The notes beneath the pieces were generated by a model. It saw nothing but the letters and a program-made list of their open reading frames with translations. It was not told where the DNA came from and did not search any database. The position numbers and the translations under genes were made by a program. A stretch of DNA of 33,381 nt from a virus: positions 1 through 33,381 of IMG/VR virus record IMGVR_UViG_3300017720_002462. One strand, given 5' to 3'. Below are positions 13,188-33,381 of the stretch, one piece after another (positions within the stretch are counted from its first letter, which is position 1; each line of letters starts with the position of its first letter).

Positions 13188-13358
13188 TTAGAAGTTTTTT
13201 AAAAATTTACCTTTAATTGGTTTTGATTTTAGTTTACTTGCTTTTTCATCATTTTTAAGCATTTTAGTAGCTAATTTATCTAAATGCTTTGATTTTTGAT
13301 TATCATAATCATGAACTATTGCCTCATGTTTTTTATGATATGATTTTCCTTTTCTCAT
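13188..13358 (-). CDS. Small lysine-rich protein, 56 aa
   Basis: ORF starting MRKGKSYHKKHEAIVHDYDN, 56 aa with about one third Lys/His/Arg. It overlaps the HNH-gene stop as ATGA and ends two bases before the muralytic gene. High charge and no hydrophobic core suggest a nucleic-acid-binding or disordered peptide. Confidence 0.6.
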   Translation of the reverse strand: MRKGKSYHKKHEAIVHDYDNQKSKHLDKLATKMLKNDEKASKLKSKPIKGKFLKNF

Positions 13359-13975
13359 ATTCTACTTATGTATTGGTTAACTTCATCTTCATCACCATCA
13401 TCTAGTCCTAATTCTTTTAAACGTTGTAAATGATAATCATCTACTTCCCATTCAACTTGTTCACTAGTACCATAATGCTCCTGTTTTGTTTCAATTTGTT
13501 TAATATCTTTTGAATTAAAAATATCACCAACAGTTAAAAAATAATGATTATAACATAGTAATTGAACATTATCTAAGCTGTAGTTATTACTATTATTATC
13601 TTTGAAGTGTAACAAAAGCGGTACTTTATAATCTAATACTCGCCTTTCCTTAAAACCACATACAGCACATTCCTCTAATAAATATCCCTGTTCTATAAGA
13701 GCATACTTAAGTTTATTAGGATTAAAAGAAGAAGCTGCTATTCTACCTTCAATTATTTCCATCATATGAGGCATTTTTTTAGGTCCCTTTAAAAATTTAG
13801 GTACACCTTTACCTGCTTGGTTTTTATGTGACTCAAACAAATTATACAGTTTAGCATACTTCTTATAATGTTGATAAGATACATGCAAGTATCTAGCAGC
13901 AGCCATATTAGATAATGTTTTACCTTGGGCTGCAACTATCTGATCTTTGCTTAAGAATTTCTTCTTATTTGCCAT
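13355..13975 (-). CDS. HNH endonuclease-like protein with N-terminal HTH
   Basis: A 206-aa protein. Residues about 10-45 look like a helix-turn-helix (DQIVAAQ...NMAAARYLHVSYQHYKKYA), as in phage HNH homing enzymes. The HNH-like core follows: C103/C106 (CAVC), then LLHFKDNNSNN (121-131, H123), LDNVQLLCYNHY (134-145, with N136, C141, H144). This matches the ββα-metal fold with a structural zinc site. The C-terminus is acidic. It may be a homing endonuclease or a DNA-processing enzyme. It overlaps the Zn-ribbon gene by 11 nt. Confidence 0.75.
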   Translation of the reverse strand: MANKKKFLSKDQIVAAQGKTLSNMAAARYLHVSYQHYKKYAKLYNLFESHKNQAGKGVPKFLKGPKKMPHMMEIIEGRIAASSFNPNKLKYALIEQGYLLEECAVCGFKERRVLDYKVPLLLHFKDNNSNNYSLDNVQLLCYNHYFLTVGDIFNSKDIKQIETKQEHYGTSEQVEWEVDDYHLQRLKELGLDDGDEDEVNQYISRI

Positions 13976-14354: not shown

Positions 14355-14906
14355 TTAATTTTCTTTTCTACCAATACTAACTGCTCTATTATCCTTTAAT
14401 TCACGTTCAATAAATTGAATTGCATCCTTTCCTACACCTGGTAGTTGATAAATAGTAACATCAAGTGTTGTTTTACACCATTCTCCTAATCTTAAGCATG
14501 TACCTGTATGTTTAGATCCTAATGTATCATCTACTTTAATATTATAAGATGTAAAATGTTGAATCATCCTTTTAAATGGAGATAATGAAGAACCAATGTA
14601 TAAATTACGAGCCTCTTCTTGATTTTTATTACGTCTAGGTGTTAAAGTATCTTTACAACTACAAACTTTTTCATGTCTAACCCAATCATTAAGTGAAATT
14701 TTACATCTTTGAGATGGTTTAATAACATAAACACATTCAATATGTTCAGGAATTGATTTAAATAATTTTATTAATTGTTTAACTGTTGATTTGGGATTAA
14801 TATTTTTATATTTAATCCAATTTTTGCTATTTTCAAAGTGATTTAGAGCTAAATCTCTAGCTTTGTAATCTGAGCTGTTTCTTTCTCTACTAGCTTGTAT
14901 GTTCAT
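14355..14906 (-). CDS. GIY-YIG nuclease-like protein with long cysteine-containing insert
   Basis: A 183-aa protein with GIY-YIG features: V59-Y60-V61 in place of GIY, Y103-I-G105, catalytic-type R113 (SPFKRMIQH) and a C-terminal glutamate E167 (FIERELKDN). GIY and YIG are normally about 10-12 residues apart, but here the gap is about 42 and contains C68, C82 and C84 (CKISLNDWVRHEKVCSC), so there is an insertion, perhaps zinc-binding with C137/C144. The family includes homing and repair nucleases. It begins 22 nt after promoter site A. Confidence 0.75.
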   Translation of the reverse strand: MNIQASRERNSSDYKARDLALNHFENSKNWIKYKNINPKSTVKQLIKLFKSIPEHIECVYVIKPSQRCKISLNDWVRHEKVCSCKDTLTPRRNKNQEEARNLYIGSSLSPFKRMIQHFTSYNIKVDDTLGSKHTGTCLRLGEWCKTTLDVTIYQLPGVGKDAIQFIERELKDNRAVSIGRKEN

Positions 14907-31260: not shown

Positions 31261-32175
31261 TTATTTATTATTGATTAAATTATTGATTAAACTCATTATA
31301 TTAATTTCCTTATCAATTCGGAAATTAGCTTTATATTGATGGTCATTAACTAACATAGCTACTGTACCTTCTTTACCAGGCATATATTTACTTGCGCTTT
31401 CATATAAAGATCTAAATAAATCTTCATAATCATCTGTATTAGCATTAGCAATTATTTGTCTAATATTTTTAAAATTTGGTTTTGATTTACCTAATTCATC
31501 TATTACTTCATATATGTATTTAGATGAAACTAAAAGTGATTTATCTAATTTAAGTTCATTATTAACTGTATTAGCTTGAATTGCATTAATGCATTTTCTT
31601 AAATCAGGATAAAACTGTAATACTATGGCACCTAAACTATCCATATCAAATACAATTTTTTCTAAATCCATAATCCAAGATAAATGATAAGCAACTTGCT
31701 TTTTATTTGGTGGAACTACTTTAAGTACTTGACATCTAGATTGTAGAGGATCTATAATTCTTTCTACATAATTACAAGTTAAAATAAATCTTGTAGTTCT
31801 AGAAAATGTTTCTATTATGTTTCGGAGCGATGCTTGCGCTTGAATCGTAAGAAAATCCGCCTCGTCCAAGATAACAACCTTGAGGGGCTTAAATGAAGCA
31901 ACCGATGCGAAACTAGAGACTTTATCCCTAATAGTTTCGATCCCACGCTCGTCAGAAGCGTTAATATAAATGTGATCACAATCTAAATTTTTAATTATTA
32001 ATTTTGCTAATGTAGTTTTACCTGTACCAGCTGGTCCATAAAATATAAAATTTTGAATATCATTATTATATAATTGGGATGCAATGGAGGATTTTAAACT
32101 CTCATTACCAACATAATCTTTTAATTTTACTGGTCTGTATTTTTCTACTAGTAAGCTATGATTAGTATTCTCCAT
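31261..32175 (-). CDS. 44: Clamp-loader large subunit ATPase (gp44-like)
   Basis: A 304-aa AAA+ ATPase of the clamp-loader family. Walker A is GPAGTGKT (47-54), Walker B VVILDEAD (100-107), INASDERG (71-78) and the arginine-finger SRC motif at 146-148 (PLQSRCQVLK). Together with the gp62-like protein it opens and closes the sliding clamp around primed DNA. T4 gp44 is 319 aa. It overlaps the upstream 88-aa gene by 14 nt. A 140-bp block in its middle (31821-31960, covering residues 72-119) has far higher G+C than the rest, though the encoded protein remains a normal family sequence. Confidence 0.92.
   Translation of the reverse strand: MENTNHSLLVEKYRPVKLKDYVGNESLKSSIASQLYNNDIQNFIFYGPAGTGKTTLAKLIIKNLDCDHIYINASDERGIETIRDKVSSFASVASFKPLKVVILDEADFLTIQAQASLRNIIETFSRTTRFILTCNYVERIIDPLQSRCQVLKVVPPNKKQVAYHLSWIMDLEKIVFDMDSLGAIVLQFYPDLRKCINAIQANTVNNELKLDKSLLVSSKYIYEVIDELGKSKPNFKNIRQIIANANTDDYEDLFRSLYESASKYMPGKEGTVAMLVNDHQYKANFRIDKEINIMSLINNLINNK
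31821..31960 (-). other. GC-rich, recoded tract inside the gp44-like gene
   Basis: By direct count, 67 of these 140 bases are G or C (48%), against 18 of 80 (23%) in 31741-31820 and 16 of 60 (27%) in 31981-32040. Codons such as CTC, GCG, TCG, CGA, CGT and AGG, rarely seen elsewhere here, cluster in it. The tract encodes residues 72-119 and includes Walker B. It may be an imported or co-converted segment; its origin is inference. Confidence 0.85.
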
Positions 32176-32428
32176 AAATCGAATATTGTTTAATTGGTTC
32201 AGCTTTTACTTCTTCTTCAGTTGTAGAAATAGCATATAACTCACTTTTAAGGGGAGCCAATCTATACTCCCCTTTAAAGCCAGTCTTTACCATATAAGCT
32301 TCTAAGGTATCAGTAAGCGTTTTATGGATAGCACCATCTGGTTCATTAGCGATTAATCTCCATTTATCACCAGGTGGTACTCTGCGAGCACTTAAAATAT
32401 TCTCTTCTATAACCTTCTTTTTTGCCAT
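32162..32428 (-). CDS. Hypothetical protein, 88 aa
   Basis: An 88-aa basic protein with MAKKKVIEENILSARRVPPG at its start and a small alpha/beta look (DKWRLIANEPDGAIHKTLTDTLEAYMV). No motif. It overlaps the gp44 start by 14 nt. A promoter box ends only 5 nt upstream of its ATG, so a leaderless or near-leaderless transcript would be expected. It contains a strong inverted repeat (32244-32279). Confidence 0.65.
   Translation of the reverse strand: MAKKKVIEENILSARRVPPGDKWRLIANEPDGAIHKTLTDTLEAYMVKTGFKGEYRLAPLKSELYAISTTEEEVKAEPIKQYSIYGEY
32244..32279 (-). repeat. Intragenic inverted repeat (hairpin)
   Basis: Arms of 13 bases (32244-32256 and 32267-32279) pair at 12 positions around a 10-base loop and include a GGGG/CCCC core, unusual in this AT-rich sequence. 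It lies within the 88-aa gene about 70 nt upstream of the gp44 start. There is no T run after it, so it is not a typical terminator. Confidence 0.65.
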
Positions 32429-32433
32429 ACTAT

Positions 32434-32463
32434 AATATACGAAATTATTTGTTAACCTCCAAA
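32434..32463 (-). promoter_or_regulatory. Phage promoter site D
   Basis: TTTGG (32459-32463), 15 nt, TTCGTATATT (32434-32443) on the minus strand. It overlaps the last codons and stop of groEL (TAA at 32452-32454) and sits 5 nt before the 88-aa gene's ATG. It shares the two boxes but not the ATACCTGAA core. Confidence 0.6.
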
Positions 32464-33381
32464 TCCTGGTTGAGGAACTGCATTATTTTCATGTCCTCTT
32501 TCTTTAAATTCATCGGAATCTTTATCTTCAATAATAGTACATTCAGTAAGTAATACTGTTCCAGCAACTGAAGATGCATTTTGTAATGCTAATCTGGTTA
32601 CTTTAGTAGGATCAATTATACCTGCTTCTTTATAATCTATTACTTTTCCTTCATCTATATGAATTCCTGCCCAATGATCATTACCTGAATCTACTAGTTT
32701 ATATTTACCTAGTAATTGTGCTTCAGTTGAATCATAACCAGCATTAAGTAATATTTGTTCAAATGGTTTTCCACATGCTTTATAAACAATTTTTGCACCT
32801 TCATTGTTTACATTTATATCTTCTCTTGCATAAAGTAAAGCAACTCCACCTCCTGGTAATATTCCTTCTTCAATAGCAGCTTTTGTTGCATGTAAAGCAT
32901 CATCAACCCTATCTTTTCTTTCATTCATTTCAGTTTCTGTAAATCCACCTACATGAATAATAGCGACACCACCTACAAATTTAGCTAATCTATTTTGTAA
33001 TTGTTCAGTTTCATATGGTGTTTTAGATTTTGTAACTTGAGCTTGTATTTCTTCAATACGCGATTCAATTGTTTCAATATCTCCTTTACCATCAACTATT
33101 GTAGTTTGTTCTTTTTCTATAGTAACTACTCTAGCTTCACCAAACCAATCCCAACTAAATTTATCGAGCTTCATTCCTTTTTCTTTACTGAATACTTGTC
33201 CTCCAGTAGTAATAGCAATGTCCTCTAGAATTAGTTTTCTTCTATCTCCAAAATCAGGAGCTTTTACAGCACAAACACTTAATGTACCTCTCATTTTATT
33301 AACAATAAGAGTAGCTAATGCTTCATTATCTATATCTTCAGCAATTATTAATAATGATTTACCTTGAGCACCTACTGCTTC
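32452..33381 (-). CDS. groEL: Phage-encoded chaperonin GroEL (3' part)
   Basis: About 309 residues of a GroEL-type chaperonin, open to the right window edge; the 29 codons before the internal Met at 33294 continue the same frame. Family blocks: VKAPDFGDRRK, IATTGG-like start of apical domain, LAKFVGGVAIIHVGG, KDRVDDALHATKAAIEEGILPGGGVAL (with the ATPase aspartate D of VDDALH and GGG nucleotide loop) and GIIDPTKVTRLALQNASSVAG. It ends GFGG rather than a long GGM tail. Phage GroELs are thought to help fold capsid or tail proteins. groES is not in the window. Downstream gene has its own promoter site D. Confidence 0.93.
   Translation of the reverse strand, partial: EAVGAQGKSLLIIAEDIDNEALATLIVNKMRGTLSVCAVKAPDFGDRRKLILEDIAITTGGQVFSKEKGMKLDKFSWDWFGEARVVTIEKEQTTIVDGKGDIETIESRIEEIQAQVTKSKTPYETEQLQNRLAKFVGGVAIIHVGGFTETEMNERKDRVDDALHATKAAIEEGILPGGGVALLYAREDINVNNEGAKIVYKACGKPFEQILLNAGYDSTEAQLLGKYKLVDSGNDHWAGIHIDEGKVIDYKEAGIIDPTKVTRLALQNASSVAGTVLLTECTIIEDKDSDEFKERGHENNAVPQPGFGG

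Follow-up and report, generated by a model that had tools for sequence, protein, structure and literature searches.

An unusual GC-rich tract in a clamp-loader gene

The window, that is, the whole stretch of DNA analysed here (33,381 nt), is a 33.4-kb virus contig with 28.5% G+C, from a phage group that we take to be marine, judging by the sample series. On its minus strand, at 31261-32175, lies an intact gene for a gp44-like sliding-clamp-loader ATPase of 304 amino acids (PHROG 168 clamp loader, E = 9e-74; Pfam AAA, E = 6e-17), an uninterrupted ORF whose codon 1 is at 32175. It is adjoined by an 88-aa gene and, at 32452-33381 (minus strand), the window contains a phage-borne GroEL-like chaperonin gene (Pfam Cpn60, E = 3e-29), which in relatives has a likely GroES-like gene beside it. 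In four related loci (L110 and L113-L115) an FkbM-like methyltransferase ORF, named by eye, replaces the usual 88-aa gene upstream of gp44.

G+C over 140 bp reaches its maximum for the record within gp44, at 31823-31962 (minus strand), about codons 72-118, with 47.9% against the record mean of 28.5%; the Walker B motif (VILDEADFLT) is at about codons 101-110. The contrast of this tract to the 400 bp on either side is 0.21, the next best value in the record being 0.127. The runner-up in G+C itself (42.9%, 32252-32391) lies in the 88-aa gene, and a clade of relatives has that stretch together with either of the two tract alleles described below. Across about 1.06 Mb of related loci, a stronger local contrast occurs only at a pair of tRNA-like genes in L086, their tRNA identity judged by eye. 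Third codon positions end in G or C in 22 of the 47 tract codons (GC3 = 0.47) but in only 18 of the remaining 236 (0.076; P = 6e-13, binomial), and 47-codon stretches in the window's other genes never exceed 0.298. The G+C scan and GC3 both confirm the sharply bounded jump of about 140 bp that had been predicted from the sequence.

The reading frame is intact through the tract, and the encoded peptide, NASDERGIETIRDKVSSFASVASFKPLKVVILDEADFLTIQAQASLR (47-48 residues), is the same as that encoded by AT-rich relatives, which bears out the original prediction of synonymous recoding with a normal clamp-loader protein kept. In AT-type relatives, G+C at the tract is 0.29-0.45 versus 0.24-0.33 in their flanks; amino-acid composition explains part of the rise, and codon choice adds to that. 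The shared GC haplotype extends a little beyond the GC signal, from about codon 66-70 to 117-125; its edges vary among recipients, and its approximate outer limit in the window is 31813-31980 (minus strand, codons 66-121). The edges are genuine: contigs from three other metagenomes (L092, L103, and L109) carry a gene identical to the window's gp44 across both of them, so that an assembly chimera, which had been raised as a check, is ruled out.

Two alleles among related phages

A viral-contig scan with the gp44 protein gave 80 loci. The gene is uninterrupted in these, and the tract falls into two classes, either AT-rich (G+C 0.30-0.45) or the same GC-rich DNA. Comparison at the nucleotide level, also proposed with the original prediction, shows that the GC pattern is not universal: the nearest non-identical relative (L002, 93% protein identity) carries the AT-rich allele, and equally close relatives encode the same peptide by that allele. 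This bears on the idea that the codons are kept for RNA structure or an overlapping element. Nucleotide diversity is low among GC alleles, as such a constraint would have it, but most relatives, the 93% sister included, do without these codons, and folding of the tract gives z-scores of 0.01 and -0.86 on the two strands, with no structure signal. We consider this explanation, already disfavoured, hardly credible.

Searching with DNA patterns taken from the tract brought up further copies, the left pattern alone occurring in 35 stretches. GC copies are 95-100% identical over about 180 bp, while the rest of gp44 shows only 72-90% protein identity (the window's own population excepted). Over 35 diagnostic sites, full GC copies match at 31-35 and everything else at 22 or fewer; the intermediates L046, L045, L017, and L032 appear to be GC copies that are older or partial. 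Since GC copies were deliberately searched for, they are over-represented in the tree set. The full GC allele occurs in none of the about 120 motif hits that make up a less biased set; it is therefore in the minority, and concentrated in the clade around the window.

Horizontal spread of the GC allele

We built separate trees of the tract and of the flanking codons from 83 gp44 genes, and the two phylogenies conflict. The GC allele forms one clade in the tract tree (SH-aLRT 99), with one change, whereas the flank-codon tree needs 11 allele changes, at least 9 of them on strongly supported branches. Monophyly of the GC carriers is rejected on the flanks (p-AU = 1e-60); on the tract, the data reject pairing L002 with L103, which is of the window's type, as sisters (p-AU = 0.002). 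The tree does not by itself orient the changes; that diversity is low within the GC clade suggests that the GC allele was gained. Synonymous-codon differences follow the same division: GC-GC pairs differ at 7% in the tract against 34% in the rest of gp44, GC-AT pairs at 66% against 36%, and AT-AT pairs at 40% against 36%. The single GC clade of the tract tree, set beside the 11 changes of the flank tree, therefore shows that the tract is one recoded allele that spread by short homologous gene conversion into at least about nine lineages, leaving the protein unchanged. This claim is independent of the donor, of any nuclease, of the host, and of the allele's ecological frequency.

A scan along gp44 found 146 divergent pairs that are nearly identical in codons 73-112 when GC alleles are included; among AT alleles alone, none of 1830 pairs shares these codons between divergent phages. 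An allele-independent recombination hotspot is thus not supported, and the spread is allele-specific. Elsewhere, genes about +1900 to +2100 from gp44 are another frequently exchanged segment, with exact 40-mers common to 125 of 2158 divergent pairs.

The main rival to a selective explanation is plain mosaicism, in which an allele recently acquired from a GC-richer phage would simply drift in a highly recombining population, without selection or nuclease. Recombination is common in this group, synonymous distance in gp44 windows correlating only weakly with that in the rest of the gene (rho 0.2-0.5); other segments, such as the gene near +2000, are shared too, and T4-type genomes are known mosaics (PMC2993671). 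However, AT alleles had the same opportunity to be shared between divergent phages, yet none is shared in codons 73-112, and 30-codon near-identity among divergent pairs is confined, peaking at 165 pairs in codons 71-100 and reaching at most 25 where the 30 codons start before codon 61 or beyond codon 91. On balance we find drift of this kind possible but unlikely.

Within the GC clade we count 10 changes from GC to AT and two from AT to GC, as expected of GC-rich DNA decaying in an AT-biased genome. This excess, together with a GC3 of 0.5, indicates a GC-richer donor. None was found in phage, plasmid, and prokaryote collections, and the viral-contig matches have AT-rich flanks. Of the recombination with a GC-richer relative that was originally suggested, the recombination is thus strongly supported by the conflict between tract and flanks, but the donor was not found. 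Some relatives have another GC-rich stretch, near -8.2 kb, which reflects normal synonymous diversity and is a different phenomenon.

A probable conversion focus at Walker B and nearby endonuclease genes

Within gp44, the sisters L117 and L046 diverge sharply at codons about 88-121 and nowhere else, their gp44 flanks agreeing at 0.95-1.00 and the tract windows at 0.85-0.88. This difference is a recent sister-pair conversion spanning those codons; the contrast between the window and its sister L002 is less clean. In a more distant clade (L110, L111, and L118; 64-67% protein identity), an identical DNA run occurs at codons 101-110, with little else so dense. The span of the one and the position of the other suggest, from sequence comparison, that the Walker B core is the probable conversion focus (31843-31875, minus strand; codons 101-111, VILDEADFLT and the next codon), its DNA being largely common to the three distant loci.

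Upstream sequence was long enough to show neighboring endonuclease genes in 183 of 232 loci, and homing-endonuclease-like genes are found just 5' of gp44 in four relatives. L038 and L063 have the same HNH endonuclease gene (171 aa, -514 to -1 upstream of gp44; endonuclease VII-like PHROG 1035, E = 6e-14), which sits as an insertion between gp44 and the 88-aa gene and has few relatives on viral contigs. L168 has a GIY-YIG-like ORF (197 aa, -610 to -19; GIY-YIG by eye, NUMOD3 by Pfam) directly before gp44, with the typical make-up of a free-standing homing endonuclease, and L165 has an HNH-type ORF at -858 to -240. A further HNH-type ORF lies at +2439 relative to gp44 in L175. Several endonuclease families have settled at the gp44 locus; from the genes beside gp44 in these four relatives we conclude that the spot is repeatedly visited by such elements. 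The GC allele is absent from all four, and among the loci surveyed no endonuclease gene is linked to it.

Breakpoints around these genes differ. The 5' part of gp44 in L165, to about codon 112, diverges more from the sisters L153 and L194, which have no such gene, than does the part just after, a pattern that is suggestive, but not conclusive, of co-conversion ending near Walker B. In contrast, L038 is nearly identical to L030 from nt 92 of gp44 onward. With its breakpoint near nt 90, its HNH gene seems to have homed without involving the tract, the putative enzyme cutting elsewhere, and the breakpoints do not support the L038/L063 gene as the driver of the tract. The window's own HNH gene (13355-13975) is rejected in that role, as it is a conserved gene that occurs with both alleles. 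When GIY-YIG, HNH_3, and LAGLIDADG_3 profiles were run against 40 records, the sole match was a weak, below-cut-off GIY-YIG hit (E = 0.02) to an ORF of the window at 14355-14906 (minus strand), which is absent from the 39 related records.

The tract might alternatively be the footprint of a now-lost homing intron or intein in gp44, with co-converted exons left behind. Inteins of the related archaeal replication factor C occupy conserved sites, one of which (site b; PMC2814812) corresponds to 31954-31959 (minus strand; codons 73-74, the Ala/Ser of NA-SDERG) and so lies inside the tract. This position is unoccupied in the window and in all relatives read, and about 230 gp44 relatives, GC or AT, are interrupted by neither an intron nor an intein. 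Intein-junction patterns at NA-SDERG and DEADFL-T, which assume a C-terminal HN, gave 0 matches. The original prediction was therefore right that gp44 now has no intron or intein, while its suggestion of a co-conversion relic is unsupported; we regard such a relic as very unlikely.

Discussion

Cleavage by free-standing endonucleases causes local co-conversion and marker exclusion in T4 (PMC2988022), and 17 silent changes shielded phiKZ gp178 from an intron endonuclease (PMC11620839). With these precedents for cleavage-driven conversion and for protection by silent changes, we prefer, tentatively and at a little short of an even chance, to read the GC tract as an allele that resists a nuclease and was copied in when breaks around the Walker B codons were repaired. 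The GC allele would have come once from a GC-richer, unsampled relative. A putative free-standing homing-type nuclease would cut the ordinary AT-rich allele close to the codons for Walker B, and the GC allele, lacking the recognition sequence, would spread. In a mixed infection the cut AT allele would be repaired from the uncut GC allele, about 100-180 bp would be copied, and the recipient would become resistant, with no need for the nuclease gene to move along with the tract. The data are compatible with escape from a nuclease, which is our preferred cause. The recoding of 140 bp counts against it in exceeding the width of one recognition site, and this width must therefore come from conversion by a recoded donor, which our searches did not find.

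Escape from a host defence that targets the conserved Walker B region, be it CRISPR spacers or some other sequence-specific system, would fit equally well the allele-specific spread and the exchange of synonymous codons in a segment that is essential and conserved, recombination swapping in the target-free version. But one spacer can be evaded by a point change, with no need of 140 bp, and the allele, being identical wherever it is shared, would become a target in its turn. We think this improbable.

Whatever its cause, the tract lets one follow a single synonymous allele as it passes sideways among divergent wild phages. Taken a step further, the preferred reading of nuclease resistance would make it a natural, protein-neutral form of mobile immunity: a nuclease would fail to recognize some 140 bp of silently recoded DNA, and the cuts it makes in competitors would copy the tract into them. 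If this were true, and we put it forward as a doubtful though possible extension, the tract would spread through a wild phage population while encoding nothing of its own. It has been proposed, in a review of T4-type genomes that noted no experimental evidence for it, that homing enzymes may mobilize DNA lying far from their own genes (PMC2993671). With the two alleles and the endonuclease genes next to gp44, a cleavage assay could address that question.

Three known systems invite comparison. The archaeal replication factor C, with its intein sites a-c, is a homologous AAA+ clamp loader whose conserved sites draw homing elements, and the position of site b falls in our tract; unlike it, the phages studied here have no intein at the sites read (PMC2814812). 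The T-even phages resemble our case in that conversion is short, localized to one site, and takes place between related T4-type phages, the uncut allele replacing the cut one (as we presume for the tract), and here too free-standing endonuclease-like genes adjoin the target gene in some relatives, none of which carries the GC allele (PMC2988022). The two differ in that our tract carries no endonuclease gene, that the cutting enzyme is putative, and that one recoded allele recurs in many wild lineages. The third is the interference between phiPA3 gp210 and phiKZ gp178 and its rescue by gp178-m17 (PMC11620839). That recoding was made in the laboratory, whereas ours is natural and the enzyme it would evade is a presumed one. 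What they share is the principle that silent codon changes in an essential phage gene can stop an endonuclease and leave the protein as it was.
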